35,554 nt of DNA from Candidatus Amesbacteria bacterium RBG_19FT_COMBO_48_16 (GTDB lineage: Bacteria > Patescibacteriota > Microgenomatia > CAZETR01 > Amesbacteraceae): assembly GCA_001775555.1 (NCBI GenBank), contig MEXE01000017.1, forward strand, positions 5,699 through 41,252, given 5' to 3'. The translations under genes and the position numbers were made by a program. The notes under the pieces were generated by a model that saw nothing but the letters and a program-made list of their open reading frames with translations, did no database searches and was not told the origin of the DNA. This document shows positions 1 through 20,783 of this stretch, piece after piece (the stretch's first letter is position 1; every line of letters begins with the position of its first letter).

Positions 1-39
1 GATGCTATAGGTCTTTTATACAAACCTATAGATATTTAA
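1..39 (+). CDS. C-terminal fragment of an upstream CDS (…DAIGLLYKPIDI*)
   Basis: Frame 1 is open from the window edge to TAA at 37-39, 2 nt before the next ATG; operon-like spacing. Confidence 0.5.
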   Translation, partial: DAIGLLYKPIDI

Positions 40-41
40 GT

Positions 42-1124
42 ATGTCTAGTTACAAGTTGGAAACATTTAAAGTTGGCACTGTTCATAATCCAATTGGAAA
101 AAGCTTGGGATTAATCCAAAAACAATATGAATTAGTAACCATTCAATTTCCTTTCAGGCTAGGTGCAATGACCTTGGATGCTTCAAGAATTGCTCCCAAC
201 AATAGTTTAGTTTTTGAAGCTGGTCAAATAAGTTTTTCGGTAGACATATGCAAAGTAATTGTGGTTAAGGTTAGGGATGATGAGAAAATAGTAATTTCGA
301 AAAGGACATCAAGACCAAGCTTGGTTACACACACTGTCAAGATTATGCAAGCAGCCTTAAATGTAAAAAATGGTTTTGATGTTGATATTGATGATAAATT
401 GGATCTTCGTCACACTGGTTTGGGATCAAGTGGGTCAATTATTGCCGGAACAGCAGCAGCTATAAATGAAATATACGGAAAACCGATAAACAACTTAGAT
501 CTCGCGCAATATTGTATTCACAATTACGGTGAAGAAATAGAAGGAGAATCAGAAACACTTGCGGTTGTGCAAAGTGTTGGAGGTTCATCGATATGTGGAT
601 TTATAGATGGAGGACTGGTTATTGTAACTGGTAAGGCAACCCCAATTTTTTCATGTAATTTAGATCAGAAATTAGTGGTTTCTATTGGTATACCAAAAGA
701 TTATGTTCCAAGAGATGCTAAGGCAATGATGCAAGCGGAATTGGAAAACATGGAAGGATTTGAGAATACTGGTAAAAACCATGCACCTGAAATTGCATAT
801 AGGCTTGTGCATGAAGTATTACCAGGATTAGTTAACGGTGACCTAAAACCTTGTAAGAAGCTCATTTTTGATTATAGATGGGATATGGGTAGCATTAAGA
901 GTTGCTCGTTTGTTTATCCGAGAATGATCGAGATAGCTGAAAATTTACGAGATTTTAAGGATGACGAAAGAATACAGATTATTGCACCATCATCGGTTGG
1001 TCCTGCATTTTTTGCTTTGAGTTATTGTTCGGATTACGTTAAAGATCGGTTTAACAAGCTAGGATTAAAAACAATTGAAGCCAAAATTCACAATTCAAGT
1101 TATACCCGAGTTAATTATTTATAA
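42..1124 (+). CDS. GHMP-superfamily kinase (beta-RFAP-synthase/sugar-kinase-like)
   Basis: GHMP motif GLGSSGSIIAGTAAAIN; C-terminal APSSVGPAFFAL segment; 360 aa. Confidence 0.75.
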   Translation: MSSYKLETFKVGTVHNPIGKSLGLIQKQYELVTIQFPFRLGAMTLDASRIAPNNSLVFEAGQISFSVDICKVIVVKVRDDEKIVISKRTSRPSLVTHTVKIMQAALNVKNGFDVDIDDKLDLRHTGLGSSGSIIAGTAAAINEIYGKPINNLDLAQYCIHNYGEEIEGESETLAVVQSVGGSSICGFIDGGLVIVTGKATPIFSCNLDQKLVVSIGIPKDYVPRDAKAMMQAELENMEGFENTGKNHAPEIAYRLVHEVLPGLVNGDLKPCKKLIFDYRWDMGSIKSCSFVYPRMIEIAENLRDFKDDERIQIIAPSSVGPAFFALSYCSDYVKDRFNKLGLKTIEAKIHNSSYTRVNYL

Positions 1125-1139
1125 AGTTTTATTATTGCA

Positions 1140-1784
1140 ATGATATTTTTTGTTGGTCAGCATGGCTCTGGTAAAAATACTGTCGCGGAGATTCTTCAAA
1201 AGGATTTTAGAATTCTTCATGTAGATATAAGCTTGGCATTAAATGAAGATAAGGCTATTAAAGCTCCAGCAATGAATACTTCAGAATGGGTTAACCATGT
1301 TGTAACTACACACGGTCTGGGGTATTTTGCGGAAGTAGCAAAAGACGCCACCTTAGTGATTACAGAAAAATCGATTAGGCAAGAACAGCGGAATGAAGAA
1401 ATTATTTTTACCGGATGCAGAAGTCCAGATATCATGTATCCGATTAGAGACATGGTGGTTTCAAGACCAGATATATTTTCTGAACACCTTAACTCTCTCA
1501 GGGTAGTAAGAATTTTTGCTCCAAGGGAAATACTAGTCAAAAGAATACTTCAACGAGATTTTGGCGTGTCTATGCAGACAATTGATAATATGCTGGCTGG
1601 GGATATGAAACACGGACTCGATAAATTATTTGATATAGCAGACACTACAATTATAAACACGGGGAGTCTTGCAGATCTAAGAAATTCAGTTCATATAATG
1701 GCTGAAAATAACTTTGGACTAAAACTAAAACCAATAATTGATTACGAAAATAGAGAAGGCCACCGCGTTTTAAAAGAAAGATAA
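1140..1784 (+). CDS. P-loop nucleotide/dephospho-CoA-kinase-like protein
   Basis: N-terminal Walker A-like GQHGSGKNT; RILQRDFG lid-like segment; ADTTIINTGSLADL C-terminus. Confidence 0.6.
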   Translation: MIFFVGQHGSGKNTVAEILQKDFRILHVDISLALNEDKAIKAPAMNTSEWVNHVVTTHGLGYFAEVAKDATLVITEKSIRQEQRNEEIIFTGCRSPDIMYPIRDMVVSRPDIFSEHLNSLRVVRIFAPREILVKRILQRDFGVSMQTIDNMLAGDMKHGLDKLFDIADTTIINTGSLADLRNSVHIMAENNFGLKLKPIIDYENREGHRVLKER

Positions 1785-1785
1785 T

Positions 1786-3072
1786 ATGAAAAAATTATCA
1801 GTATTTATTGCTTCATTCGATGGAATTTTAACTAGACATTCTGGCGTGGGTAGTGCAACCATAGCTTATATCAGAACTATACCTGAAATAAGAAAGGCGC
1901 TTTTGTTAAACAGAAGTATAGATTTAACCTTCTATGCGCTTACAAATAAATATGATGCTAGCGCCTGGAGTCGAAACTTAGAAATTGAAAAGGAAGTGAG
2001 AGACATTTGTCATTCAACGGGAGGCAAATTATTAACTTGTCTAAATAACAGTTCAGGAGATACACATTTTGGAAATATCCAAAACTGGACTTGTGTATCT
2101 GCATCTGCGGCCACCCAAGCTGTGCAAGTGCTGGAAAATAACGAATTTGATTATTGTATTTTTATGGCTCACGATACTCCATATGCGATGGCACCAATAT
2201 ATTTAGTAAAACAGAATTTTACAAAAACAAAAATAATAGGTACCTTTACCCCACACGGAACATCTTTAATTCACGAAAAAGGAGAATACAATCTTGACCG
2301 AATTAAATGGGAAAGTGAAGCTTTTCAAGAATTTAATAAAAATTCGAACCTTTTTGTATGTCACATAAGCAATTTCATGAAAAATCATTTACATATCGAC
2401 TATGGTGTTAATCAAGAATCACTACTCCCAATGCTCAATGGTATAGATTTTAAAGAACTAATTAAATATAAAAAACAAAATATAGTTAAAATTTTTAATA
2501 AATATAATATCCCAACGAATAAACCTTTAATTGTGACTTATGGAAGAGGAGCTTCATATAAAGGTTATGATATTTTTATAGAGGCTGTAAAAAAGTTAAA
2601 GTTACCGTTCCACTATGTTTTACAAGCTGTTCCGTATAACCCAATCGACGACATTGAATTGAAATTAAAAGATGCAACCAATGGAATGAATAATATAACC
2701 ACGATATTTGAATGGTCGTTCGATTTACCCAGAATGTTACTTCAATGGGACAAAACATTTTTAACTTGCCTTCTATCAAGACGTGAACCGGGAGCATTAA
2801 TACCGGCGGAAATTAGATATAACGCAAAATCGCTTTGTCTGGTATCTGACCAAGATGGATTACCTTGCCAAGTAACAGATGGGGTTGATGGATTTATTAC
2901 AGAAATTGACTCATATGAAAAGGTCGCTGACAAAATTAAGCATATTTATCAATTACCCAAGGATAAACAGGAGTTAATAAAAAGAACAGGTCTAAATCTA
3001 ATTAAAGAAAATTACAATATGCGTAATAATTTTTCTGCTTCATTTAACAACTTAGTGAATAATCTTATATAG
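1786..3072 (+). CDS. Glycosyltransferase, GT4/GT-B-like
   Basis: HSGVGSATIAY N-terminus, NGIDF, VTYGRGASYKGYDIFIEA, REPGALIPAEIRYNAKSLCLVSDQDGLPCQVTDGVDGFI. Confidence 0.75.
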   Translation: MKKLSVFIASFDGILTRHSGVGSATIAYIRTIPEIRKALLLNRSIDLTFYALTNKYDASAWSRNLEIEKEVRDICHSTGGKLLTCLNNSSGDTHFGNIQNWTCVSASAATQAVQVLENNEFDYCIFMAHDTPYAMAPIYLVKQNFTKTKIIGTFTPHGTSLIHEKGEYNLDRIKWESEAFQEFNKNSNLFVCHISNFMKNHLHIDYGVNQESLLPMLNGIDFKELIKYKKQNIVKIFNKYNIPTNKPLIVTYGRGASYKGYDIFIEAVKKLKLPFHYVLQAVPYNPIDDIELKLKDATNGMNNITTIFEWSFDLPRMLLQWDKTFLTCLLSRREPGALIPAEIRYNAKSLCLVSDQDGLPCQVTDGVDGFITEIDSYEKVADKIKHIYQLPKDKQELIKRTGLNLIKENYNMRNNFSASFNNLVNNLI

Positions 3073-3073
3073 C

Positions 3074-3679
3074 ATGAACACTAGTTTTAATAAAATATTA
3101 GTTGTTTTTGATGGATTACCTGGATCTGGAAAAACAACCACGGTGGATTGGCTAAGTAGTGAATACCACGGATTGGCAATACCAGAAGTTCCTGAACACA
3201 ACCTATCAAAACCATTTACCGAAGAGTATTTTATCAATTGTGAAGAAATAAAGATAGGCAGATTTATTAATTCAAAACATGAGTTTAACTTTATGGATAG
3301 AAGTCCCATTTCAATTGTGGCTCATGACTATGGTTGCTTTAAACTTGGATATGAAAATGATAATTATCAACTAAATAAATGGTTTCAAACCCAAATTACC
3401 AAAATCAATTTAAAGAACACACTCTTTGTTTATCCTAGAATTTCAAATGTAAAATTATGCAACCTAAGAAAGTGGGGAGAAAATCTTGAAAAGCTACCCA
3501 AGGAATTTAAAACTATTCAAGGAGCAAGATTGTGGACTGAGGATAAATTTTTGGAGATAGTGAAAGTCTTCTATGACGACTTTTATGGTAATATTAGAAA
3601 TAAATTAGTTATTGACTGTGATATGATTTCACTAGAAAAGATGTTTAGTTTAATAAAGCACAAAATCGATTCAACATGA
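3074..3679 (+). CDS. P-loop kinase, thymidylate/deoxynucleoside-kinase-like
   Basis: Walker A GLPGSGKTTT, MDRSPIS motif; 201 aa. Confidence 0.65.
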   Translation: MNTSFNKILVVFDGLPGSGKTTTVDWLSSEYHGLAIPEVPEHNLSKPFTEEYFINCEEIKIGRFINSKHEFNFMDRSPISIVAHDYGCFKLGYENDNYQLNKWFQTQITKINLKNTLFVYPRISNVKLCNLRKWGENLEKLPKEFKTIQGARLWTEDKFLEIVKVFYDDFYGNIRNKLVIDCDMISLEKMFSLIKHKIDST

Positions 3680-4158
3680 CTGAAAAAGAAGTAAGCTACA
3701 AAATATTAAGGTTTAATAAATTACTCTCGTTTCTCAAGGATATTTCCGGAAATGTTTACAAGACAAACAATATTACATTCCAATATTTTGAAAGTGATTT
3801 GGTGCCTCATTTTTACGCCAGATTGGAAAATATAGTTGATTTAGACACCAAGTCAGAGAAAAAGCTTTTAACTTTCAAGTATGGTTTTAAGACCGTTGGG
3901 GGTGTAAATATCAGGAAGGAGAAGACCACACCCATCAGTGACCCAAAATTCTATATAGAATTGTTCAAGTTCTTAGGATTAAAAAGAAAGGGTTCAAAAC
4001 ACAAGCTCCAGTATAGATTTAATATTGCTAAGGTAGATATTACGGTAAATAAGTGGAAAGAAATGTCACCAAGGATAGAAGTAGAGGCTAATTCAGTAAA
4101 AAATATAAAATCCTTTGTAAACCAGATAAAAGACTTTGTAGAATTGGAAAATAAATAA
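3676..4158 (+). CDS. CYTH-like (class IV adenylate cyclase / triphosphate tunnel) protein
   Basis: N-terminal EKEVSYKI (degenerate ExExK), KHKLQYRF and DITVNKWKEMSPRIEVEA near the C-terminus; overlaps the upstream stop by 4 nt. Confidence 0.5.
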   Translation: MTEKEVSYKILRFNKLLSFLKDISGNVYKTNNITFQYFESDLVPHFYARLENIVDLDTKSEKKLLTFKYGFKTVGGVNIRKEKTTPISDPKFYIELFKFLGLKRKGSKHKLQYRFNIAKVDITVNKWKEMSPRIEVEANSVKNIKSFVNQIKDFVELENK

Positions 4159-4163
4159 AATAA

Positions 4164-4733
4164 TTAGTCCTTTTTAGAAGTCCTTAATAATAAATCACCT
4201 AAAACTGGACTAATCTGAGATATTGTCTTCTCCTGTAAGTTTTTCTTATCAATATCAATTGGTAATTTATCAGCTTCATCTTTACCGGTTAATGACAATT
4301 GAAACCTAGGTGCAATTTTATCTAAAGCCCAAACAAACCGAGATTCTTCAGAAACTCTTTCTTCATACTCCTCCCACAGTGTGATCAATTCTTCAGAAAT
4401 TGAAGTTGGCAGTAAAGAAAACAACTTGTTTGCAGATTTTCTTTCACGATTTTCCTTTTGATTTTTATCCACCGCACCAACTCCATATACATCTCCGGAA
4501 TAAATTTCTACCAGGTCGTGAACCAAAGCAATTTTTATGGATTTAAGAAGATCAAATTTTTTCTCGTATAAATAACTATACATCCAAACAAACATGACAA
4601 GATGCCAAGTATGTTCGGCATCACTCTCTCTTCTGCCGCCGCTTTTTATAACAGACAATCTTTTTATTGATTTAAAGTCATTAATTACTTTTAAAAACTC
4701 GTAAATCTGATCCGAAGTATGTAATTTATTCAT
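4164..4733 (-). CDS. HD-domain hydrolase (YfbR/5'-nucleotidase-like)
   Basis: SDAEHTWHLVMF … ALVHDLVEIYSGDV HD signature. Confidence 0.75.
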   Translation of the reverse strand: MNKLHTSDQIYEFLKVINDFKSIKRLSVIKSGGRRESDAEHTWHLVMFVWMYSYLYEKKFDLLKSIKIALVHDLVEIYSGDVYGVGAVDKNQKENRERKSANKLFSLLPTSISEELITLWEEYEERVSEESRFVWALDKIAPRFQLSLTGKDEADKLPIDIDKKNLQEKTISQISPVLGDLLLRTSKKD

Positions 4734-4736
4734 TAT

Positions 4737-6089
4737 TCAATCTAGATCAACTTTTGTTTCAGAATCAATAAGATGGAGCACTTCAATAAGTTCATCTTTA
4801 TAATAACTCATTTTATTAACATAATTAATATCGCTAAGCAAGCCCATCTTGATAATAGATGAAAAGATTGGATCTATGTCTTGAATTCTAACAGAGAACT
4901 CTTTTGAATCCATTAACGTGTTTTTTGGTAAAATTCCCGCTGATATGTATTTTGAACCCAACTTTGGCGAGACACTCAGAGAAAAGCGCGTACTAAAGAT
5001 ATCTTTATCTCCTCTGATTCTATTAGGATTACCAGAAAGTGAAAAATATACAGGAAGGTCCGTCTCTTTTAGACATTCTTTAGCTAATGGGGGAAAATCA
5101 TTAAGCCTAGGGCAAATTTCAACGGGAGGCTGGATCCCTCTACTATTTGCTAGATTTTTATGCCAAATTATGTTTTGTGGTTTCATTTGATCTTCATCAA
5201 GTTGTATTTTCCCTTCTTTCCAATGAATCATACTCGTTGCGAACTTTATTCCCAATCTGTCGCAAATGCGATGAATAATTGTTTCAGGACAAAGTCTCAA
5301 TTCAGTGCTGTCAACAATTAAATATGGCAATCGTTGAGTATCGAGGTATTCAACCTCTGTATGGAGAGATTTCCAATCAGACGCTTCAGATGTAAAGTTT
5401 TGTCGGCTAAAGCTCAATATTTCTCCAAGAGTGGAATATTCTTGCACCCAAGCTGTTTCCTTTATAAAGATATCCCAATCGGTATATCCTTTACGTCTTG
5501 CATAATAATTTAGCAATTGATGTTGCAGATCAAGATTTGGTTGATCCAACGGAATAGAACTTACATTTTTAATTCCCTCACCTTCCAATAGTTGAATAAC
5601 CTTTTGATCACTTGAAACCTTAGAAAGGTTCCATTGTTCGACTTTTGTATCCCTTGCTATCATGTCTAGGATATATTTTTGGGTTGACACCTTGGCCTTA
5701 ATTGGAATTGACTGAATAATTTTATTGATTCTTGATTCCATGGAAAGCAAAGGATTACGGATTAGGAATAATATCGGTTCTGTCACAAGTGAGAACAGTC
5801 TTTTGTATTCTTCATTTGTGTTAAGCCAATATGACATTTCTTTGACAACAACCTTGTTTTTATTGTTACTATCACTTTCCAAACTATCTAAAATACCTTT
5901 GTAACCCAAATCAGACTCAAATCCGTCTTGGACTGGACGCATAAATGGTTCATTAACTTTAAAGTTCACGGAAGGACTCATTGCCAGTGAGGATTCTAAT
6001 AGTGTGGAACCAGTTCTAGGAGGAGCTATTATCATTAACAATTCAAGGTTTCCAGAATCAACCAACTGTTTAACTTTTTCGAAATACAT
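4737..6089 (-). CDS. Sulfotransferase-family-like protein
   Basis: N-terminal IIAPPRTGSTLLESSLAMSPSV (5'-PSB-like loop), FLIRNPLLSMESR. Confidence 0.65.
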   Translation of the reverse strand: MYFEKVKQLVDSGNLELLMIIAPPRTGSTLLESSLAMSPSVNFKVNEPFMRPVQDGFESDLGYKGILDSLESDSNNKNKVVVKEMSYWLNTNEEYKRLFSLVTEPILFLIRNPLLSMESRINKIIQSIPIKAKVSTQKYILDMIARDTKVEQWNLSKVSSDQKVIQLLEGEGIKNVSSIPLDQPNLDLQHQLLNYYARRKGYTDWDIFIKETAWVQEYSTLGEILSFSRQNFTSEASDWKSLHTEVEYLDTQRLPYLIVDSTELRLCPETIIHRICDRLGIKFATSMIHWKEGKIQLDEDQMKPQNIIWHKNLANSRGIQPPVEICPRLNDFPPLAKECLKETDLPVYFSLSGNPNRIRGDKDIFSTRFSLSVSPKLGSKYISAGILPKNTLMDSKEFSVRIQDIDPIFSSIIKMGLLSDINYVNKMSYYKDELIEVLHLIDSETKVDLD

Positions 6090-6213
6090 AAATCCTTTAC
6101 ATTATTATCTTAGACTTATAGTATATCACATTTTGGTATAAAGACATCGTGGCTCAAGTATAAAAAACGAAAAAATGTAGACTAAGATGGTAAAATAGCC
6201 ATATTCTCTGAGC

Positions 6214-7881
6214 ATGACCGAAAAATTGTTGTCTGGTAAGCAAATCGCTTTAGAAACCCATAATTCTTCAAGACATGATGGAGGGGTTGCTCTCTATTTA
6301 CCAGATCAAGACAAAGTGGTGGCTATTCAAGCCGAACGCATAGATAGAAAAAAACATAGCGGAGATTCAAACGCTGCTTATCAATATGCAAAATCGCTTT
6401 ATGAATCTCAGGGTTACATATTTGGTACTGAGACAGATAAATTCGACCCCAACCTTCAAAAGGAACAACCTATCCATCATCATTTAGCTCATGCAGCCAG
6501 TGCTTTTTACCCATCTGGATTTGAATCGGCAGCCGTATTGGTGGTTGACGGTCAGGGAGCATATAAAGACGGAGCTTATAACTCCACTACCATATGGAAA
6601 GGCAGTGATCGACAGTTAGAACTGGTTGAAATGAATCCTGAACCAGATTTTTCTACACAATCAATTGGTCAATTTTATTCGGCTATAACTTACTTTTTAG
6701 GTTTAGGATATCTTGAAGAGGGTAAAACCATGGGTTTGGCTCCATATGGTAAAAGTTCTGACACGTATCGTTGGTTAAAACAATATGTAAAAACCTCATC
6801 TGATGGAAGTTATGAAATAGTTCCTGGTTTTACAAAAGCTTTATTTTGGGCTTCAAGTATGAACCGTACCGCTTGGGGTGAAAAAACACTACTAGAAAGC
6901 CGAATGTTAGATGAAGTTAATGGTTATTTGGGGGAATCGAGAAAAAAGGAAGAGCCTTTGACTCAGAAATTTATTGATTTGGCATGGGCAAGTCAGGCCG
7001 TGTTTGAAGATGTCATTGTAGGGCTTGTAGGAAGAGCTAAGGCATTAACTGGAGAAGATCATCTTTGTATGAGTGGCGGAGTCGCTTTAAACAGCGTAGC
7101 TAATATGAAAGTTGTGGAAGCCGGAGTATTCAGCAAAATTTTCTTTCAGGCTGCTGCTGGAGATGAAGGTCAGGCCTTGGGAAAGCTTATGTATAGATTA
7201 CATTCTGAGTATCAATTGCCCAGAACATTTACAATGAAAAATGCATATTTAGGTCCTGAATATGAGAATCAAATGACGGTGGATGCACTCAATAGACATA
7301 AGGATAGCTTACAGTGGACAAAATTAGAGAGAGAAGACTTGTATGAAAAAACTGCAACATCAATTTCTGAAGGTAAAATTATTGGATGGTTCCAAGGCAG
7401 ATCCGAAATTGGACCGAGAGCACTTGGTAACAGAAGTATTCTTGCCGATCCTAGGCGTCCTGACATGCGAGATCATATAAACTTCAAGGTAAAACATCGT
7501 GAATGGTTTAGACCACTTGCTCCTAGTGCAATCCTAGATCGAGCAGATGAATTTTTCGATTTAAGAGCGGAAAGTCCGTTTATGATAGTTGTATGTAACG
7601 TCAAACCAGACAAGAGAGCTTTAATACCCGCAGTGACACACATTGACGGGACAGCCAGAATACAAACAGTAACCCGAGAGGAAAATGAAAAATATTATGA
7701 TGTGATAAAGAAATTTGGCGAACTTACTGGAGTTCCTTTGCTTCTCAATACCTCCTTTAATGATGCGGGAAAACCTATTGTGGAAACTCCCGAAGATGCG
7801 ATTGCTGCCTTTTTAGGCATGAATTTAGATTATCTGGTTATTGGAGATTATTTCATAAATAAAAAATCTGCTTTAATATAA
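6214..7881 (+). CDS. Carbamoyltransferase (NodU/CmcH/TobZ family)
   Basis: HHHLAHAASAFYPSGF, VVDGQG, EGKTMGLAPYG, MSGGVALNSVAN, GWFQGRSEIGPRALGNRSILADPR. Confidence 0.93.
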   Translation: MTEKLLSGKQIALETHNSSRHDGGVALYLPDQDKVVAIQAERIDRKKHSGDSNAAYQYAKSLYESQGYIFGTETDKFDPNLQKEQPIHHHLAHAASAFYPSGFESAAVLVVDGQGAYKDGAYNSTTIWKGSDRQLELVEMNPEPDFSTQSIGQFYSAITYFLGLGYLEEGKTMGLAPYGKSSDTYRWLKQYVKTSSDGSYEIVPGFTKALFWASSMNRTAWGEKTLLESRMLDEVNGYLGESRKKEEPLTQKFIDLAWASQAVFEDVIVGLVGRAKALTGEDHLCMSGGVALNSVANMKVVEAGVFSKIFFQAAAGDEGQALGKLMYRLHSEYQLPRTFTMKNAYLGPEYENQMTVDALNRHKDSLQWTKLEREDLYEKTATSISEGKIIGWFQGRSEIGPRALGNRSILADPRRPDMRDHINFKVKHREWFRPLAPSAILDRADEFFDLRAESPFMIVVCNVKPDKRALIPAVTHIDGTARIQTVTREENEKYYDVIKKFGELTGVPLLLNTSFNDAGKPIVETPEDAIAAFLGMNLDYLVIGDYFINKKSALI

Positions 7882-7895
7882 AATTAAAATCTGAC

Positions 7896-8588
7896 ATGAA
7901 AACATTGGGAGTTATCGGCGGACTAGGACCACAAACTACAGCGGATTTATATAGAAGAATTGGTGAGCTTGTTGATGTAAGTAAAACTGGTCAAAGACCA
8001 CATATCATCATTGATAGCATACCCATTACTACATATCTGGAAAATGAAAACATCATTCATGAAAGAGAGTTCGAGCCTGTTTTACCGTATTTAATAAATG
8101 CAGCAATAAACTTAGAAAAATCTGGCGCAGATTTTATTGTGCTTGCTTGCAATTCTTTACATATATTTACTAAAGAAATTACTGAGGCTATTAATGTGCC
8201 TTTTGTAAGTATTACTGATACTGTAGTACAAACCGTGCTTGAAAAGGGCTATAAAAAAGTAGGGCTTTTGGGAACAATAAGAACGAACTCGTCAAAAATG
8301 TATGATATACCACTCAAAAAGCAAGGTGTCGATCTTTATAAACTTGATGTCGAAAGACAGAAGGAATTAAACAAAACAATTATTAGGTTAATTAATAATA
8401 CCTATGATCAAAGTGATAGCATAATATTTCACGACGCTGTCTCTAAATTGTTTGATAATGGAGTGGAGGGTGTAATATTAGCCTGTACAGATCTTCACTT
8501 GCTAATGAATGTGACAGATAATTTTGAAATTATTGATGCGATGGAAGTACTGGCTCAACGTTCGGCGAAAATAATACAGAATGGATAG
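7896..8588 (+). CDS. Aspartate/glutamate racemase family protein
   Basis: GVIGGLGPQTTADLYRRI; both catalytic-Cys regions present (VLACNSLHI, ILACTDLHL). Confidence 0.88.
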   Translation: MKTLGVIGGLGPQTTADLYRRIGELVDVSKTGQRPHIIIDSIPITTYLENENIIHEREFEPVLPYLINAAINLEKSGADFIVLACNSLHIFTKEITEAINVPFVSITDTVVQTVLEKGYKKVGLLGTIRTNSSKMYDIPLKKQGVDLYKLDVERQKELNKTIIRLINNTYDQSDSIIFHDAVSKLFDNGVEGVILACTDLHLLMNVTDNFEIIDAMEVLAQRSAKIIQNG

Positions 8589-8659
8589 ACATATGTGTGA
8601 TAGTAACAATTGTGATTAGGGAAAGATTATTAGAGATTTAGTTGATAAAATAGGAATTT

Positions 8660-9706
8660 ATGGAGATTGGAATTGTGGGGTTGCCGAATGTGGGTAAAAG
8701 TACCCTTTTTAATGCTTTGCTGAAGCGGCAGGTGGCATTAGTGGCCAACTATCCTTTTGCGACGATCGAGCCGAATACGGGGGTAGTACCGGTGCCGGAT
8801 GGGAGACTGGATAAACTGGCAGAAGTAGTTAAAGAATCGGAGAAAATGAATGAATTACCGCCGAAAGTCTATGCGACGGTAAAGTTTGTGGATATTGCCG
8901 GGCTGGTAAAGGGTGCGTCCCAGGGAGAGGGACTGGGAAATAAATTTTTGGCACACATCAGGGAAGTGGATGCAATAGCCCATGTGCTTAGGGACTTTAC
9001 GGATGAAAATGTGATCCGGGCGGGAGCTGCTGATCCGCAATCGGATTTTGAAGTAGTGGAAGCGGAATTACTTTTAGCTGATTTGCAGACGGCAGAAAGA
9101 GTGCAGGACACAAAAGATAATATTATTAAAAACCTGGCTGTAAAAATTGCCCTGGACCTGCAAAAAGGAATACCGGTGAGAGATCAGAGTTTTACTGATG
9201 AGGAACTAAAATTAGTTAAACAAATGGCCTTTATGACTGCAAAACCGGTGATAATTGTCCTTAACGTTGATGAGAAATTTATAAATAACGCCTCCGCGGG
9301 GGAGTTACCAATAGTGAGAATTTCTGCCAAGATGGAAATCGAACTGGCTGAGTTGGTCGAGGAAGAACAAAAAGCATACTTGCAGGATTTAGGCGTGACG
9401 GAGAGCGGGCTTCAGAGGTTAATAAGAAAGGCATTCGATATTTTAGGTTTACAAACATTTTTGACTGCCGGTGTGAAGGAAGTACGGGCGTGGACGATAA
9501 AGAAAGGAACAAAGGCTCCTCACGCCGCAGGGGTGATCCATACCGACTTTGAAAAGCACTTTATAAAGGCGGATGTAGTTGAATATGAGCAATTTGTGTC
9601 TGCGGGGGGATGGAATAATGCCAGGCAGGCGGGTAAGGTCCGGACTGAGGGAAGGGAGTATGTGATGAGGGAAAACGACGTAGTGGAGTTTAAGGTAGGG
9701 GTATAA
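8660..9706 (+). CDS. ychF: Redox-regulated ATPase/GTPase YchF (Obg family)
   Basis: GIVGLPNVGKSTLFNAL, NYPFATIEPN, FVDIAGLVKGASQGEGLGN, C-terminal TGS-like GTKAPHAAGVIHTDFEKHFIKADV. Confidence 0.97.
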   Translation: MEIGIVGLPNVGKSTLFNALLKRQVALVANYPFATIEPNTGVVPVPDGRLDKLAEVVKESEKMNELPPKVYATVKFVDIAGLVKGASQGEGLGNKFLAHIREVDAIAHVLRDFTDENVIRAGAADPQSDFEVVEAELLLADLQTAERVQDTKDNIIKNLAVKIALDLQKGIPVRDQSFTDEELKLVKQMAFMTAKPVIIVLNVDEKFINNASAGELPIVRISAKMEIELAELVEEEQKAYLQDLGVTESGLQRLIRKAFDILGLQTFLTAGVKEVRAWTIKKGTKAPHAAGVIHTDFEKHFIKADVVEYEQFVSAGGWNNARQAGKVRTEGREYVMRENDVVEFKVGV

Positions 9707-9852
9707 TCGGGGCGTGGCGGAACATGAAGTAGCGGTGGGCGAGGATGCCACAGGTGGAAAGTTATGAATGCTGAGCTGAAGCGCCAAAACAGTGTCGGGA
9801 GTTTAAATGATGGGGGTGGTTAGGAGGCGAAATATTTGGTATACTGGCGGAC

Positions 9853-10140
9853 ATGAATAAATATGACCTGACTGTGGCCTTTCGTCCGGCGGCGGACGGT
9901 GAAGCAAATACGGAAAAGCTGGAGGAAAAACTGGAAAAGACAGTGGCAGTACTGGGAGGGAAAACGGGGAAGATGACCGAGATGGGCAGAAAACAACTGG
10001 CATATAAGATAGACAATCTGGCGGAAGCAACTTTTTTAAATTGGACGCTTGAACTGCCGGGAGAAGCCGTGGTACAATTGGAAAAGAAGTTAACAATAGA
10101 CCGAGATATAATACGGCATTTATTAGTAAAAGGGACCTGA
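9853..10140 (+). CDS. rpsF: 30S ribosomal protein S6
   Basis: KYDLTVAFRP…GRKQLAYKIDN…; rpsF-ssb-rpsR synteny. Confidence 0.9.
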   Translation: MNKYDLTVAFRPAADGEANTEKLEEKLEKTVAVLGGKTGKMTEMGRKQLAYKIDNLAEATFLNWTLELPGEAVVQLEKKLTIDRDIIRHLLVKGT

Positions 10141-10144
10141 AGGA

Positions 10145-10717
10145 ATGGCAACGAGATCACTGAACAAAGTAATGCTCATCGGGAACCTGACCCGGGATCC
10201 GGAATTGCGGTATACACCCCAGGGGACTGCTGTATGCACTATCGGGATGGCGACGAACAGGACCTGGGTGACGGAGAGCGGGGAGAAAAGAGAGGAAACC
10301 GAGTTTCACAGAATTGTAGCCTGGAATAAACTGGCAGAGTTGTGCTCGCAACTGCTGTTTAAAGGCCGGAGAGTATATGTGGAAGGAAGACTGAAAACCC
10401 GCCAATGGACGGCTCCGGACGGCACTCAAAGACAGGCGACCGAAATTGTGATAGAGGACATGCTGGTATTGGATTCACGCAGGCAGGGTGAGGATGTGGT
10501 GTTTGATGATCAGGCGGGACAGGCAGTGGGAGCGGTACCGGCAGCCCAGCCTGTACAGGCGGCCCCGGCGGACGAAGTTGCCCCGGAAGTAATGGCGGAA
10601 GAACCACAGGCAGCGACAACTAAACCTATAAAGTCCAGACCTAAGTCTAAGTCCAAAAAAGAAGAGGAAAAGGTTGAGGAAACGGCTGAAGAAGTGGCTG
10701 AGGACATTCCTTTTTAA
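10145..10717 (+). CDS. ssb: Single-stranded DNA-binding protein
   Basis: LNKVMLIGNLTRDPELRYTPQGTAVCTIGMATNRTW; acidic C-terminus ending EDIPF. Confidence 0.97.
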   Translation: MATRSLNKVMLIGNLTRDPELRYTPQGTAVCTIGMATNRTWVTESGEKREETEFHRIVAWNKLAELCSQLLFKGRRVYVEGRLKTRQWTAPDGTQRQATEIVIEDMLVLDSRRQGEDVVFDDQAGQAVGAVPAAQPVQAAPADEVAPEVMAEEPQAATTKPIKSRPKSKSKKEEEKVEETAEEVAEDIPF

Positions 10718-10749
10718 TTAACGGTTTATAGTGTGGAGTTTTTGTAAAG

Positions 10750-10980
10750 ATGCTGCCGGTTAAGAGAAAGATCAGAGTACCGAAGAATTGCCAATTTTGT
10801 AAAGAGAGGGTAAGGCTGCATTTTACAGAAGTAGCTACCCTGTCCCGATATATTTCGGACAGAGGCAGAATTATCGGCCGGGACAGAAGCGGGGTGTGTG
10901 CGAAGCACCAGCGGGGATTGTCAATTGCAGTGAAACGAGCCAGGCATTTGGCACTGCTGCCTTTTGTATCCGGATTGTAA
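10750..10980 (+). CDS. rpsR: 30S ribosomal protein S18 (Cys-containing, C+ type)
   Basis: NCQFCKE…[42 protein letters not shown]. Confidence 0.95.
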
Positions 10981-11000
10981 GGCTTGCGGCCAGTAAAATT

Positions 11001-12230
11001 ATGAATCCAAGAAAACTGTTGGTTGTCGGGACGCTAGTAATAGCAGCTGGTTACGTGGGTTTTTTGCTAGGCAAACAACAACTGGCGTTTGAGTACAAGA
11101 ATTGGAAACCGGCGTTAATTGTAAACCGGTCACCCAGGTTGGATCAGGCGGCGGCGGAAGTTGATTTTTCCCTGTTTTGGACGGTTTGGGACAAGGTGTC
11201 TGGAGTTTATGTGGACAAAAGGGACCTGGATGCAAAAAAGATGGTGGATGGAGCGATATCCGGAATGGTGGCGGCCATCGGAGATCCGTATACGGCGTAT
11301 TTGCCCATGCAGAAGAATAAAGAATCCAAAGAGGATCTGGGCGGAGAGTTTGAGGGAGTGGGAATACAACTGGGATTTAAAGCCCAGAATCTGGCGGTGG
11401 TGGCACCCTTGGACGGCACGCCGGCACAGAGAGCGGGTATCAGGGCGGGAGACCTGATTGTGTTGATAAAGGATGATAAAAGGGGAGTAAATAGGAGTAC
11501 GGAAGGGATGGCGTTGGCTGAAGCGGTACAGTTGATCCGGGGACCGGGGCAATCAAAAGTGAAATTGACGATCGTCAGGGAGGGAGTGGACGAACCGTTT
11601 GAGGTAGAGCTGGTCCGGGAGACAATTTTGGTCAAAAGCGTCCTGGTCGAGTACAAAGAAAAAGCGGCCTGGGTCAAGCTGAGCAGATTTGGAGATAAAA
11701 CCCGGGAGGAGTGGGGAGAAGCGGTTAACCAACTTGCGAGCTTGCCTGAAAGTGAGTTGAAGGGAGTGATATTGGATTTGAGGAATAACCCGGGAGGGTA
11801 TTTGGAAATGGCGACTTATATTGCCGGTGAGTTTTTGCCGGCGGGGAAAAATGTGGTCACGCAGCAGTATGGTGACGGCTCAAAATTGGAAAGTGCGGTG
11901 GACAGAAACGGCCGGTTACTGAAAGTGAAACTGGTGGTTCTGGTCAATCAGGGAAGCGCTTCGGCTGCGGAGATTTTGGCCGGGGCGTTGCAGGATTATA
12001 AGCGGGCAAAGGTGGTAGGGGAAACGTCATTTGGAAAAGGAAGCGTGCAACAACCGGAAGACTTTCCGGACGGGTCGGGAGTGCATATCACGGTAGCCAA
12101 GTGGCTGCGCCCATCGGGCGAGTGGATAGACAAAGTCGGGGTTACCCCCGATGTGGTAGTGGAGATGCCGGAGGGGAAAGACGACACGTCTGATCCGCAG
12201 CTGGAGAAGGCGATGGAAATGTTGAGATGA
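11001..12230 (+). CDS. S41-family C-terminal processing peptidase (CtpA-like) with PDZ
   Basis: GDPYTAYLP, PDZ segment, VILDLRNNPGGYL, VNQGSASAAEILAGALQDYKRA. ATG at 11001 (MNPRKLL + TM) preferred over the tracked 10896 start, which overlaps rpsR. Confidence 0.92.
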   Translation: MNPRKLLVVGTLVIAAGYVGFLLGKQQLAFEYKNWKPALIVNRSPRLDQAAAEVDFSLFWTVWDKVSGVYVDKRDLDAKKMVDGAISGMVAAIGDPYTAYLPMQKNKESKEDLGGEFEGVGIQLGFKAQNLAVVAPLDGTPAQRAGIRAGDLIVLIKDDKRGVNRSTEGMALAEAVQLIRGPGQSKVKLTIVREGVDEPFEVELVRETILVKSVLVEYKEKAAWVKLSRFGDKTREEWGEAVNQLASLPESELKGVILDLRNNPGGYLEMATYIAGEFLPAGKNVVTQQYGDGSKLESAVDRNGRLLKVKLVVLVNQGSASAAEILAGALQDYKRAKVVGETSFGKGSVQQPEDFPDGSGVHITVAKWLRPSGEWIDKVGVTPDVVVEMPEGKDDTSDPQLEKAMEMLR

Positions 12231-12277
12231 GATACTAATTGATCTTATTGGACTAAACTACTAATATATTCACTGAC

Positions 12278-13453
12278 ATGATCAAAATGAGGAAATATTT
12301 GCTGTGGGGGGCCGGGGTGCTTTTGGTTTTGGGAGCGATGACCGGAGGTGCGGTTTCAGACCGGTTGTTCGGGTACCGGATTTTGGATAAGTGGCTGCCC
12401 AGGGAGAGTGCTCAGAGCGCCGTACTTAATAATCAAAAGGTGCTCTATGAAGAAAATGTGGTGATTGAGGTGGCCGAGAAAGTAAGTCCGTCGGTGGTGA
12501 CTGTCGGGATCAAGAAAACCCAGATTTTACGCCAGCCGCAGTTTAATGACTTTTTTTCGGATCCGTTCGGGTGGTTCCGGTCGCCTTCAGACGGACAAAC
12601 TCAGGAAAGAAATATCGAACAGGATATTGGGTCGGGATTTGTAATCAGCCGGGACGGTTTGATAGTGACCAACAAACATGTAGTGGGAGACAGTGAGGCC
12701 GGATACAGGGTGATTACCAAGGACGATAAGACGTACGAGGTGGAGAAAATATACCGGGATCCGGCTAATGATTTGGCTATTTTGAAAATAAATGCGGACG
12801 AGTTGCAGCCAGTGGAGATGGGGGATTCAAGCAAACTGAAAGTAGGCCAGTTCGTAATTGCCATCGGGACAGCGCTGGGCGAGTTTCGGCATACCGTGAC
12901 TACGGGTGTGGTATCAGGACTGGGGAGAGGAATAACTGCGGGAAGTCCGTTTGAAGCGGTGGCGGAGAGGCTGGATAACGTAATTCAGACGGATGCGGCG
13001 ATTAACCCCGGTAATTCGGGGGGACCGCTACTTAACTCCGCCGGTCAGGTAATCGGTGTGAACACGGCGATTTCGCAAGAGGGGCAGAATATCGGTTTTG
13101 CCCTGCCCATAAATATTGTCATGGAAGCAATCGATAACTTTAATCAAACAGGGCAATTTAACCGTCCTTATCTGGGGGTAAGGTACCGGATGATAGACCA
13201 GAAAACGGCGATAATGAATGAGGTACCCCAGGGAGCTTTTGTTCAGGAAGTGATTACCGAAACACCTGCCGGCAAGGGAGGGGTGGAGGAGGGCGATATT
13301 ATTATCCGGCTGGGAGGGGAAAAAGTGACAGGAGACGATACCGGGCTGGCCAAGCTGATTTCAAAGCATAAAGTCGGGGATAAGATTGAAGTGGTGGTAT
13401 GGCGGGAGGGGGAGGAGAAGACATTGACTGTGACATTGGAAGAGGCGAAATAA
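12278..13453 (+). CDS. HtrA/DegP-like S1C serine protease with PDZ
   Basis: Signal anchor, GSGFVISRDGLIVTNKHVV, NDLAILKI, NPGNSGGPLLN, C-terminal PDZ. Confidence 0.95.
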   Translation: MIKMRKYLLWGAGVLLVLGAMTGGAVSDRLFGYRILDKWLPRESAQSAVLNNQKVLYEENVVIEVAEKVSPSVVTVGIKKTQILRQPQFNDFFSDPFGWFRSPSDGQTQERNIEQDIGSGFVISRDGLIVTNKHVVGDSEAGYRVITKDDKTYEVEKIYRDPANDLAILKINADELQPVEMGDSSKLKVGQFVIAIGTALGEFRHTVTTGVVSGLGRGITAGSPFEAVAERLDNVIQTDAAINPGNSGGPLLNSAGQVIGVNTAISQEGQNIGFALPINIVMEAIDNFNQTGQFNRPYLGVRYRMIDQKTAIMNEVPQGAFVQEVITETPAGKGGVEEGDIIIRLGGEKVTGDDTGLAKLISKHKVGDKIEVVVWREGEEKTLTVTLEEAK

Positions 13454-13669
13454 TCAGTTGTTATCTCTGAGTTTGAGGATAGGATTTTGGCCGGAGCTGT
13501 GTAGCATTCTACAAATATGGGCGTTAGCTACGGCGTCGTAGCAAAATGATGAAACCTTTCCGCATGAGGGGCAGCTAATCGTATATATACCAAGTGCTTT
13601 AATAGTTTCGGGATGGTCTAAATTTACTTCAGGGAGGCGTAAGAGAGTGAATAGAATTATTTTTTCCAT
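13454..13669 (-). CDS. Small putative zinc-ribbon protein
   Basis: 71 aa from ATG at 13669, CPSCGK…C…HIC; stop abuts the htrA stop convergently. No clear family. Confidence 0.35.
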   Translation of the reverse strand: MEKIILFTLLRLPEVNLDHPETIKALGIYTISCPSCGKVSSFCYDAVANAHICRMLHSSGQNPILKLRDNN

Positions 13670-13711
13670 CGGTGGCTGGATTTTAGGACAGATTTTGGGT
13701 AAAATCAAGGC

Positions 13712-14035
13712 ATGAAGGCGGATATACATCCTCAGTACTACCAGGCGAAAGTGACGTGTGTCTGCGGGAATACGTTTACCATAGGTTCTACTAAGCCGGA
13801 AATTAAGGTGGAAATTTGCTCAGCCTGCCATCCGTTTTTCACTGGGGAAATGAAGTTTGTGGATGCTTTGGGGAGAGTCGAGAGATTTACCCAAAAGATG
13901 GGAGCTACCGCCGGAAAAGCGGTAATATCCAAAAAGGCCAGGAAGCAATTAAAGAAGAAACAGGAGGAAGAGGAAGAAGCGGCCAGGCCGAAGAGCCTGA
14001 AAGAGATGTTTGATAGGGTAAGAGCGAAGGATTAA
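13712..14035 (+). CDS. rpmE: 50S ribosomal protein L31 (C+ type) with C-terminal extension
   Basis: [27 protein letters not shown]…[12 protein letters not shown]. Confidence 0.95.
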
Positions 14036-14048
14036 TTTGAGTAACAGC

Positions 14049-14972
14049 ATGGATCATTCAAGACGATACCTGGAGGAGGAGAGAAAAAAGCTGGAGGCGG
14101 AGATGGAGAAAGTGCAGAAATTACTGGGGACGGATCTGGATTCGGAGGCGAAAAGCGAGCTGGCAAAATTAGAAAGCCAAAAACAACAACTGATGCAGGT
14201 AATGCAGACAGACGATTCCGGCCTGACTACTTCCTCGGCTGCGAATGGAACAGGGCAGGATTTTGATAATATCATTTTGGAGGTAAGGCCCGGAGTGGGA
14301 GGTGATGAGGCCAAGATTTGGGCGGAGGATTTGGTGAGGATGTACATCCGCTTCGCGGAAGTTAGAAACCAAAAGTTTAAAGTCAAAATTAAGGTAGAGT
14401 TTTTAGATGATGGGGTTTTAAAAATAACGGGACCTGGTATTTATGACCTGTTAAAAAATGAGACGGGGGTACACCGGGTGCAGAGAGTGCCGGAGACGGA
14501 GGCGGCTGGAAGAATTCATACATCGACAGCTTCGGTGGTAGTTTTGCCGGAGGTGTCGGAAAAAGTTGTGGTAGTCAGAGAGGACGATTTGCTATGGGAA
14601 TTTTCCCGAAGCGGGGGCCACGGAGGACAGAATGTAAATAAAGTGGCAACGGCGGTCAGGCTGACTCATAAACCAACGGGGATTATGGTGGGTTGCCGGC
14701 AGGAGCGATCTCAGGAGCAAAATCGAAAAATAGCCTTGGAGTTGTTGCGGGCTCAGTTGTGGGAAGTTGAGGAGGAACGGAAGGCATCGGTTTTTAGCGC
14801 CGCGCGGTCGAAAATCGGAAGAAGCATGCGGGCAGAAAAGATCAGAACTTACAATTTTCCCCAGAATAGGGTGACGGATCACAGGTTGGGTAAGAGCTGG
14901 TATAAACTGGACAGGATAGTACAGGGAGAACTAGACGATATAATTGAGACTTTGAAAAATGAATTGGATTGA
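14049..14972 (+). CDS. prfA: Peptide chain release factor 1 (short N-terminus)
   Basis: SGGHGGQNVNKV, RVPETEAAGRIHTS, NRVTDHRLG. ATG at 14049; tracked TTG start at 14037 also possible. Confidence 0.93.
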   Translation: MDHSRRYLEEERKKLEAEMEKVQKLLGTDLDSEAKSELAKLESQKQQLMQVMQTDDSGLTTSSAANGTGQDFDNIILEVRPGVGGDEAKIWAEDLVRMYIRFAEVRNQKFKVKIKVEFLDDGVLKITGPGIYDLLKNETGVHRVQRVPETEAAGRIHTSTASVVVLPEVSEKVVVVREDDLLWEFSRSGGHGGQNVNKVATAVRLTHKPTGIMVGCRQERSQEQNRKIALELLRAQLWEVEEERKASVFSAARSKIGRSMRAEKIRTYNFPQNRVTDHRLGKSWYKLDRIVQGELDDIIETLKNELD

Positions 14973-18728: not shown

Positions 18729-18757
18729 ATTATTTCATTGATAACCGGTGTTATCAA
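18729..18757 (-). promoter_or_regulatory. Putative higBA promoter/operator
   Basis: TTGATA-17-AATAAT on the minus strand; inverted repeat TTGATAAC-N4-GTTATCAA (18738-18757) overlaps the -35 and spacer. Confidence 0.6.
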
Positions 18758-19610
18758 TTCCAAAAGGGTAAATAACTGGTAATTTGTCATTAAAGATTTG
18801 AGATATTAACGGTTGGTACATTTTTGAACGAAGTAACGATGGTTTTTCATTCTGTAGTAGAATGGCATTTGGAAAAAACAGATAGATAAAAAATCCTTGG
18901 AGCAGATATTCGGTAAATTTGCGTTTGACCCAAATATCTAATGTGGACGGGGGTGGGACTATCAGATTGGGAAAATACTTTCCCGGGCCAAAAGCCAATT
19001 TAAGACGGCGGATTTCCCAACGAAAATCTGTTGATGAAAAATAGGCCTTTATTTGGGGTAAGAGGGTGTTGAATATTGTTTCAAAGCTAATACCGGTTTT
19101 TAGTTGGAGGTCTTTTTCCCATTGTCTCCAATTAACTACTTGGAAATTTCTAACCTCCTGATCTTTGAGCCAAATGTTTAAATTTTTCTTATATTGCTTC
19201 CATCGGGTTTCATATTTAGGCCAGAGTGAATCGGTCGGGGATTTAAGAATTGAGAAGCTTTGGGTAAAGATATAGTAAGGATCGGTGTTACCGATGATGA
19301 TTTTAACCTCTACAGGATATATAGATTGGAGTTGTGAAATGAGCTTTTTTAAAGTAGGGAGATCCGGCTCAAGATTATTACCAATGGGGTTGACGCTGAC
19401 ATATTTCCAGGGTCGTTTTGAGTTAAATAGATAGCTGTCATTAATAGTGGAGCAAGTAAAAATGACCAAATTGAGGGGGAGGTTTTTGATAACCTGATCG
19501 GTAACACGGAAAGCAATTAAACTTTTATCGGGGTTGGGGGGTAATTTGTCTAGGGACGTTAACTTTTGACACAGCTGGCTGATGATCTTAGCTTGAGATG
19601 AATTTACCAC
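18735..19610 (-). CDS. Conserved-looking protein of unknown function, paralogue of the upstream gene
   Basis: 291 aa; shares FTC..I..SYL, IIxG and terminal LPVIYPF with the 19604-20707 product; 7-nt overlap with it. Confidence 0.75.
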   Translation of the reverse strand: MVNSSQAKIISQLCQKLTSLDKLPPNPDKSLIAFRVTDQVIKNLPLNLVIFTCSTINDSYLFNSKRPWKYVSVNPIGNNLEPDLPTLKKLISQLQSIYPVEVKIIIGNTDPYYIFTQSFSILKSPTDSLWPKYETRWKQYKKNLNIWLKDQEVRNFQVVNWRQWEKDLQLKTGISFETIFNTLLPQIKAYFSSTDFRWEIRRLKLAFGPGKYFPNLIVPPPSTLDIWVKRKFTEYLLQGFFIYLFFPNAILLQNEKPSLLRSKMYQPLISQIFNDKLPVIYPFGIDNTGYQ

Positions 19611-20707
19611 GGTTGTTTTTTGGGATTAAACGGGTAAATAAAGGGAAGCTTTTCTTGTTCGGGAAGAGCGGAGTTGAGCATGTCAGTTCTCAAGTCGACT
19701 GGTTGTTCACTTTGGAGACCGACAGTGTTGGGTAAAGTTGTTTTGATAGTGACGCCTTGGAAACCGTAAGTGGCAACTTTCAACTGAGCGATTTGCCGAA
19801 GCTGGGTTTCTGTGGGTTGCGGCAAGCTGCCGTAATAACTTCCAGGTTGGAAAAACTCTGTCATGCGGGAAGCCTCTTGGTTAATAAGCGAAGGATTTAA
19901 CCCGCTTAGTGAGGAAGGAGAGGGAGGTTTAAGTTGAGTCCAGCCTAATATTTTTTGGGGAATTTCTTTTAAAAGTTTACGACATTGTTCTCTAAAACTC
20001 TCTAAATATTCAGACCGCCTTTGTTTGAGAAATTGGGGGTTGGTGCCAAAATTTCCTAAAACGGGGAAAAGATAGTTTTCTTCATCTTCTTCGCCCACTA
20101 TGATTGTTAATTCCCAGGGAATATCAGCTGCACCGAGATTTTGAGCAAGTTTCAGAATGGCCTTGGTATTGACGGAAATATTATTTCTGGAAGCACTGGT
20201 TTGGATAAAATAATCAGGATCTGGTCCGGTGAGATAAGCCGAGTCTATTTCAGGGCACGCAAAGGTAAATAATTCGACTTTTTGGTTTTTTACTAAACCG
20301 GATTGAATTTGGCGAAGTATGGTGGTTCGATCGGGGTTGAGACCGGCGGGGAAAAATCTGTCACATTCGAGAATTGCGCCGACTGCCAAGCGAATATCTT
20401 CCGGTAAATCACGGGAGAATCCGTATTCCTCGCTGATCTGATCAGCCAGTTGTTGACGGGTTTTAGATATCCGTTCGGTTAACGGTTGGACTGAACGCAG
20501 TAGGCGGAATGCTTGGTTTAATGCTAGGGTTTGGTCTGGTTTCGGAAGACCTTTGGCCGAGGCTTGATCCCAGCGGCGTTGATAATCGTCCCGCAGAGAT
20601 TTTGCCTGAGAAAGTTTCTTTTCGATATCGGTTTCTAAACCACGGGATGAGAGACGGTTTTTGTACTCCGTTTTGAGGGTTGAAAGAATATCAAAATCGG
20701 GTGACAT
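19604..20707 (-). CDS. Protein of unknown function, first of a paralogous pair
   Basis: ATG at 20707 (MSPDFDIL…) chosen because the tracked start at 20782 lies in the tRNA gene; FACPEIDSAYL, TIIVGEEDEENYLF, LPFIYPF. Confidence 0.78.
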   Translation of the reverse strand: MSPDFDILSTLKTEYKNRLSSRGLETDIEKKLSQAKSLRDDYQRRWDQASAKGLPKPDQTLALNQAFRLLRSVQPLTERISKTRQQLADQISEEYGFSRDLPEDIRLAVGAILECDRFFPAGLNPDRTTILRQIQSGLVKNQKVELFTFACPEIDSAYLTGPDPDYFIQTSASRNNISVNTKAILKLAQNLGAADIPWELTIIVGEEDEENYLFPVLGNFGTNPQFLKQRRSEYLESFREQCRKLLKEIPQKILGWTQLKPPSPSSLSGLNPSLINQEASRMTEFFQPGSYYGSLPQPTETQLRQIAQLKVATYGFQGVTIKTTLPNTVGLQSEQPVDLRTDMLNSALPEQEKLPFIYPFNPKKQPW

Positions 20708-20710
20708 AGG

Positions 20711-20783
20711 GGTGGGTGAGGGGAGTCGAACCCCCACTACCGGCTCCACAAACCGGTGTGCTGACCGTTGCACTACACCCACC
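20711..20783 (-). tRNA. tRNA-His (GUG)
   Basis: GGTGGGTG…CCGGTTTGTGGAGCCGG…GGGGGTTCGACTCCCC…CACCCACC; anticodon GTG; G-1:C73 pair; CCA not encoded. Confidence 0.96.

Follow-up and report, generated by a model that had tools for sequence, protein, structure and literature searches.

A probable composite metabolic island of foreign origin at the 5' end of ychF in a Candidatus Amesbacteria genome

In the literature that we searched, the only cases of ychF as an attachment site are pneumococcal, where the attB of prophages and satellite prophages lies just upstream of the gene (PMC8637289, PMC10383233). Genomic islands of Patescibacteria have been described with a mean length of about 10 kb (PMC12455944). 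Here, we consider a stretch of 35,554 nucleotides (the window; G000:C17:5699-41252, contig MEXE01000017.1) from Candidatus Amesbacteria bacterium RBG_19FT_COMBO_48_16, a Microgenomates-class member of the Patescibacteria with an assembly (GCA_001775555.1) of 912 kb in 56 contigs, and in particular the nine genes that fill its first 8,588 nucleotides, upstream of an intact copy of the conserved gene ychF (Table 1). These genes are likely to be a composite metabolic island that was acquired horizontally and entered the genome at the 5' end of ychF. The acquisition and the insertion site are well supported, and the source bacterium is tiny and probably host-dependent. The locus bears on the open question of how gene-poor, host-dependent Patescibacteria acquire new chemistry.

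An initial annotation, made from the sequence alone, had described an AT-rich island ending in a sharp change of composition near 8.6 kb, and had proposed plots of guanine-plus-cytosine (GC) content and codon usage in which the lack of a break was to count against it. Both features are borne out. The GC content is 34.7% over window positions 1-8588 versus 48.6% over 8660-33000; GC at third codon positions (GC3) lies between 0.25 and 0.37 in all nine genes, against 0.46-0.63 in host genes apart from a patch at 18735-20782; and leave-one-out codon log-odds assign every one of the nine genes to the island, and ychF and almost all genes after it to the host. By GC, GC3 and codon usage alike, the break is located at ychF (start 8660). 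The genes are also patchily distributed among 186 relatives: P-loop kinase 1 was found in none of them, the sulfotransferase-like gene in one (a weak match), P-loop kinase 2 in three and the gene for the GHMP-fold protein in five, three of them marginal. The carbamoyltransferase family is common yet diverse (62 of 187 genomes, the source included), its best other matches being 42-46% identical. Homologues of the GHMP protein with 35-51% identity occur in Saccharibacteria, Woesebacteria, Pacearchaeota, Lachnospiraceae and Nocardia, and no second genome was found with the complete nine-gene set. The horizontal origin of the nine-gene block, also proposed in the initial annotation, is well supported by the break in composition and codon usage, the patchy distribution, the homologues in distant phyla and the duplicated ychF starts, which lie in flanking direct repeats (with the caveat of an N gap at the left junction).

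The upstream extension that had been proposed covers the 5.6 kb over which the contig (C17, L002) continues to the left of the window, and a run of N (about L002:5592-5698) ends directly before window position 1. The left edge of the island is thus an assembly gap. The start of ychF occurs three times on the contig, twice truncated to the left of the window and once intact. Copy 1 (contig 4131) breaks off after codon 6, and copy 2 (5539-5590) extends over 17 codons and runs into the N gap; across 51 nt, copy 2 is 90% identical to intact ychF, with an exact 27-nt core, CCGAATGTGGGTAAAAGTACCCTTTTT (28 nt with the next A). Both truncated copies are contained in a perfect direct repeat of 85 bp, which takes in the upstream region and carries, in copy 1, the palindrome ATCACACACCCGGTGTGTGAT. 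Between them, in gap-free sequence (L002 4070-5590), lies a cassette with an S66 peptidase (MccF/LD-carboxypeptidase-like), of 39.9% GC versus 52.3% in the flanking DNA. The 20 nt upstream of ychF match those of the relative G008 at 16 of 20 positions for copy 2 and at 6 of 20 for the island-side copy, and the mean match to relatives is 8.1 versus 5.6. Since the sequence upstream of copy 2 fits the relatives better, copies 1 and 2 appear to be native and the first bases of intact ychF to be imported.

A serine recombinase gene abuts ychF in eight relatives: G003, G014 and G016, where its reading frame extends into the start of ychF, and G074, G087, G100, G115 and G169, which account for five of the top 30 recombinase loci of the class. 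The 3' ends that overlap or abut the ychF start belong to L045 (3433-5055), L080 (5032-6590), L075 (8198-8767), L172, L174, L177, L182 and L184, and these recombinases resemble one another in sequence. The island thus sits at the attachment site of recombinase-bearing elements in eight genomes. The same place at ychF is occupied in other relatives by CYTH genes (G008, G010) or by HD, kinase and Nudix genes (G021), and truncated ychF copies are found inside the contigs of G014 and G038. On these sequence comparisons, the ychF start behaves as an integration hot spot in the relatives. Two further candidates for truncated copies, in G036 and G026, were rejected because they appear to be assembly breaks or strain variants. 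The stretches examined in G016, G087, G100, G115 and G169 contain no truncated ychF at the far end, save for a degenerate ychF-like stretch in G169 (L198 1083-1139, LTVGIVGLPNVGPIT) within the 3' end of the recombinase gene, which is perhaps an older attachment-site half. At L080, a possible terminase-small-subunit-like gene was seen by eye upstream of the recombinase. No tRNA that could serve as an attachment site lies near the island.

Based on these observations, incoming DNA bearing its own ychF 5' end would recombine at the ychF start, in the way that serine-recombinase elements seem to in at least eight related genomes. We propose that cassettes accumulate at ychF because every exchange would restore a complete ychF and leave a truncated start behind. 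The cargo would comprise one fragment with the GHMP-fold enzyme and a P-loop kinase, a second with the glycosyltransferase family 4 (GT4) enzyme, the deoxynucleoside-kinase-like enzyme and the CYTH and HD proteins, and a set of tailoring genes for the carbamoyltransferase, the sulfotransferase-like protein and the racemase. Several points weigh against this proposal. Searches with family and phage profiles did not detect a recombinase in the island, and the one PF07508 match in the genome lies on contig C8 and belongs to a different sequence group. With a scaffold gap at its left junction, the island is connected to the left flank through scaffolding. Campbell-type homologous recombination could yield the perfect repeat around the S66 cassette, and homologous recombination via imported ychF starts would also produce repeats. 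No empty site was found, since the same-genus genome G001 gave no match to ychF or to the ychF block. Finally, the nine genes may not share one pathway, because both strands are used and the full set is seen nowhere else.

Repeated unrelated insertions at ychF could instead have built an array of cassettes with separate roles, for example in salvage, detoxification or surface decoration. We regard this as possible, if doubtful. In keeping with it, the S66 cassette just left of the island stands apart and has ychF repeats of its own, and distinct CYTH, HD, kinase and Nudix genes precede ychF in G008, G010, G021 and G040, but no ychF-start repeat lies between any of the nine genes, which are also fairly uniform in composition.

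The genes of the proposed composite island are tightly packed, and the gaps of about 1-125 nt given in the initial annotation agree with those measured (15, 1, 1, -4 (an overlap), 5, 3, 124 and 14 nt). They occupy both strands, which rules out one operon; with the HD and sulfotransferase-like genes on the minus strand, the block divides into three or more transcription units (42-4158, plus; 6089-4164, minus; 6214-8588, plus). Most of the gene families first assigned were recovered, namely GHMP_N (39.8 bits, cut-off 22.3), GT group 1, HD_3, the N- and C-terminal carbamoyltransferase domains (239.5 bits for PF16861 and 118.1 bits for PF02543, both above cut-off) and Asp/Glu racemase (144.9 bits, cut-off 93.1, with both presumed catalytic cysteines present). 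The sulfotransferase-like protein falls just short of the Pfam threshold (Sulfotransfer_5, 22.6 bits versus 23.2), its single relative is in G155, and its structure model, with a predicted local distance difference test (pLDDT) score of 33, is unusable; this protein and both P-loop kinases are below curated cut-offs or without a match in Pfam and NCBIfam. The CYTH gene has a weak CyaB match and is supported by alignment with other CYTH-type proteins, two of the related ychF-side genes having Pfam CYTH matches themselves. At the start motif, usually E-x-E-x-K in CYTH proteins, those of the window (3676-4158), L131, L134 and L069 read E-x-E-x-x-x-K.

Table 1. Features of the island and its right-hand boundary, in window coordinates
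Feature	Position	Strand	Family evidence or remark
Left edge of the assembled island, immediately right of the N gap	1..41	.	
GHMP-fold enzyme, beta-RFAP-synthase/ForT-like or amino-acid-kinase-like; first gene of module A	42..1124	+	PF00288
P-loop kinase 1; second gene of module A	1140..1784	+	weak AAA_18/CoaE matches
GT4-type glycosyltransferase (GT group 1); module B	1786..3072	+	PF00534
P-loop kinase 2, thymidylate/deoxynucleoside-kinase-like; module B	3074..3679	+	profile A5 matches
CYTH-type protein; module B	3676..4158	+	weak cyaB match and L131 homologue
HD-domain nucleotidase-like hydrolase; module B	4164..4733	-	PF13023 (HD_3) 136 bits, YfbR-like 42.9 bits
Sulfotransferase-like protein, possible 3'-phosphoadenosine 5'-phosphosulfate (PAPS) loop PPRTGST	4737..6089	-	Sulfotransfer_5, sub-threshold
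NodU/CmcH-type O-carbamoyltransferase	6214..7881	+	PF16861, PF02543
Asp/Glu-type amino-acid racemase	7896..8588	+	TIGR00035; presumed catalytic C85, C197
Intact ychF; opens with the third copy (51 nt) of the ychF 5' end found on the contig	8660..9706	+	

Two other identities for the island were dropped. An anti-phage defence system was discarded, as PADLOC gave no match at the island. Phage cargo was discarded after phage records yielded no match for the GHMP or sulfotransferase-like proteins and a pattern scan of IMG/VR none for the GHMP protein, GT4 or kinase 2; the carbamoyltransferase family does have phage relatives (phrog_1601, 1e-119). A search for riboswitches or other RNAs at the island found none. 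Elsewhere in the window, the second AT-rich patch (18735-20782; GC3 0.39-0.41) encodes two seemingly paralogous unknown proteins and adjoins a tRNA-His gene.

The GHMP gene and kinase 1 (module A) are associated beyond this genome: the pair recurs in Saccharibacteria and other groups, as part of larger clusters that also hold a methyltransferase and a Ham1-type enzyme. Scanning an alignment of the GHMP protein across 84,980 species gave 18 loci, mostly in Patescibacteria, with others in Pacearchaeota, three gut-type Firmicutes (Eubacterium ramulus, Lachnotalea and Lachnospiraceae UBA935) and Nocardia wallacei. In the 17 neighbourhoods scored, a methyltransferase is found in 13, a Ham1-type nucleoside triphosphate pyrophosphatase in 10, kinase 1 in 7 (homologues 19-27% identical, at loci other than the window), a PrnB-like protein (PF08933) in 7, a U32-like protein in 6, and pyridoxal phosphate enzymes of the MfnA-like and CobD/HisC-like types in 6 and 5, respectively. 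The closest GHMP homologues (51%; L082 and L083) have the same gene order as the window, GHMP and then kinase 1, and at L091 a racemase 35% identical to that of the window lies immediately upstream of the GHMP gene. From this repertoire the window has kinase 1 and the racemase and lacks the methyltransferase, Ham1 and PrnB; the gap could conceal further partner genes to the left. In the gut Firmicutes (L090 7693-19095, L092 and L094), the GHMP gene is surrounded by a conserved cluster with MfnA-like decarboxylase, U32-like, CobD/HisC-like, HAD, methyltransferase, MiaB-like, B12 radical SAM and CAT-like genes, with DAHP synthase and MetK additionally seen by eye at L090. It looks like an undescribed biosynthetic cluster.

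The structure model of the GHMP protein is confident (pLDDT 91) and matches both homoserine kinase and ForT. In the structure search, homoserine kinase was best by E-value (TM-score 0.60), and ForT had the highest TM-scores among the leading matches (0.66-0.68); in the profile comparison, homoserine kinase aligns mostly with the N-terminal half and ForT mostly with the C-terminal half. Like beta-RFAP synthase and ForT, the protein has the GHMP fold and an SSxGP motif. An H124-x-G-[LF]-G loop is present in 18 of 18 family members, with a following serine in 17 of them, and this invariant histidine ahead of G-x-G-S stands at the place of ForT His99, which contacts the pyrophosphate of 5-phosphoribosyl 1-pyrophosphate (PRPP) (PMC8183095); the solved homoserine kinase, in contrast, has no loop histidine in the alignment. 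Unlike beta-RFAP synthase and ForT, the protein scores 20.7-22.1 bits against a family cut-off of 328, and it has Gly at the position of ForT Thr106 and no equivalent of Arg135 identified in the alignment. R39 is invariant in the family, its correspondence to Arg19, like Thr106 and Arg135 a PRPP-binding residue of ForT, being unproven. Because of the Gly at the Thr106 position and the distance from the family cut-off, a C-riboside synthase, as suggested by the sequence and the model, is only a live hypothesis, and the protein may be an ordinary homoserine kinase.

Module B also recurs elsewhere. In the Microgenomates genome G339 (L131), homologues of the CYTH (36% identical), HD (41%), GT4 (41%) and kinase 2 genes are contiguous, beside an NDK-like gene. 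G314 has kinase 2, a GT4 (30%) and a CYTH-like gene together and, at another locus (L132), kinase 2 with another glycosyltransferase, an NDK-like gene, HD and a NodU-type carbamoyltransferase. Kinase 2 and a glycosyltransferase occur with HD in G155, G002 and G211, and in G040 they lie with thymidylate-kinase-like and HD genes in AT-rich DNA immediately upstream of ychF. Kinase 2 resembles thymidylate and deoxynucleoside kinases in its P-loop, its DRxxxS motif and a profile similarity over almost the full length (profile A5, 6e-11 and 3e-10, respectively); unlike them, it matches no Pfam family and forms its own sequence group with glycosyltransferase neighbours. The GT4 protein retains E-x7-E (EPGALIPAE), and its nearest solved structures are 8ixp and 8il0/8ila, the latter being the lincosamide S-glycosyltransferase LmbT. 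The carbamoyltransferase, with homologues including GdmN, TobZ and the novobiocin carbamoyltransferase, is of the NodU/CmcH/TobZ type, residues 87-553 being homologous to solved antibiotic carbamoyltransferases; unlike NodU proper, it scores below the NodU equivalog cut-off. The source genome has a second NodU-type carbamoyltransferase (32%; G000:C31 (L081) 1-14809), near genes that by eye look queuosine/folate-type and glycosyltransferase-like.

The initial annotation had seen in the nine genes one compact pathway, to be abandoned if homologues were scattered singly among relatives. Instead, two sub-sets keep conserved neighbourhoods, and that part of the claim stands, whereas the full nine-gene set, as noted, has no counterpart. 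A single dedicated pathway to a natural-product-like glycoside or glycoconjugate nevertheless seems unlikely to us. Close packing and uniform composition, a carbamoyltransferase similar to antibiotic-tailoring enzymes, LmbT among the nearest solved relatives of the GT4, a NodU-type carbamoyltransferase in one kinase 2/glycosyltransferase cluster and the racemase homologue adjoining the GHMP gene at L091 would all suit such a pathway. They have to be set against three transcription units, modules A and B that are found apart elsewhere, the missing GHMP partners, and family profile searches that revealed among the nine genes no scaffold-forming core enzyme (polyketide synthase, nonribosomal peptide synthetase, or ribosomally synthesized and post-translationally modified peptide system). 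The predicted glycoconjugate chemistry has one GT4 and one carbamoyltransferase in its favour, and the conserved partners point to nucleotide-type chemistry instead. For the composite island, we tentatively suggest that the cargo may make or modify a small molecule that is phosphorylated, linked to a nucleotide or nucleoside, glycosylated and carbamoylated; nucleotide-type chemistry is favoured because related loci conserve NDK, Ham1 and thymidylate-kinase-like partners.

That the duplicated ychF starts are an artefact of metagenome assembly or strain mixing, and the island merely lies upstream of ychF, is improbable: an N gap does separate the truncated copy from the island, and contigs of relatives' metagenome-assembled genomes also break at the ychF start (for example G036, with a 99-nt identical overlap), but copy 1, the S66 cassette and copy 2 all lie in gap-free sequence, truncated copies also occur within contigs of G014 and G038, and serine recombinases stand at exactly this place in eight genomes.

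The composite island supplies a searchable landing site, the ychF start, together with cassettes that recur in distant lineages. A bolder extension, which we consider rather a long shot, is that the ychF start is a general accretion site in Microgenomates-class Patescibacteria, spreading nucleotide-chemistry cassettes, and that the GHMP-fold protein catalyses the key step of a mobile pathway, as yet undescribed, from PRPP to C-linked ribosides, shared with Lachnospiraceae, Nocardia and Saccharibacteria. If the protein were a C-riboside synthase, it would reveal a family of so far unexplored pathways of nucleoside type in ultra-small bacteria and in gut Firmicutes.

Compared with known systems, the island is like the genomic islands described in Patescibacteria in being foreign DNA within a streamlined genome; the main text of that study makes no mention of ychF, recombinases or glycosyltransferases (PMC12455944). 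With the pneumococcal prophages it shares foreign DNA beside ychF, a duplicated target and an intact ychF. The prophage group listed beside ychF in pneumococci has a tyrosine integrase, whereas the relatives considered here have serine recombinases and the island itself carries no recombinase. Furthermore, the pneumococcal site is intergenic, whereas here it is the coding start of ychF that is duplicated (PMC8637289, PMC10383233).

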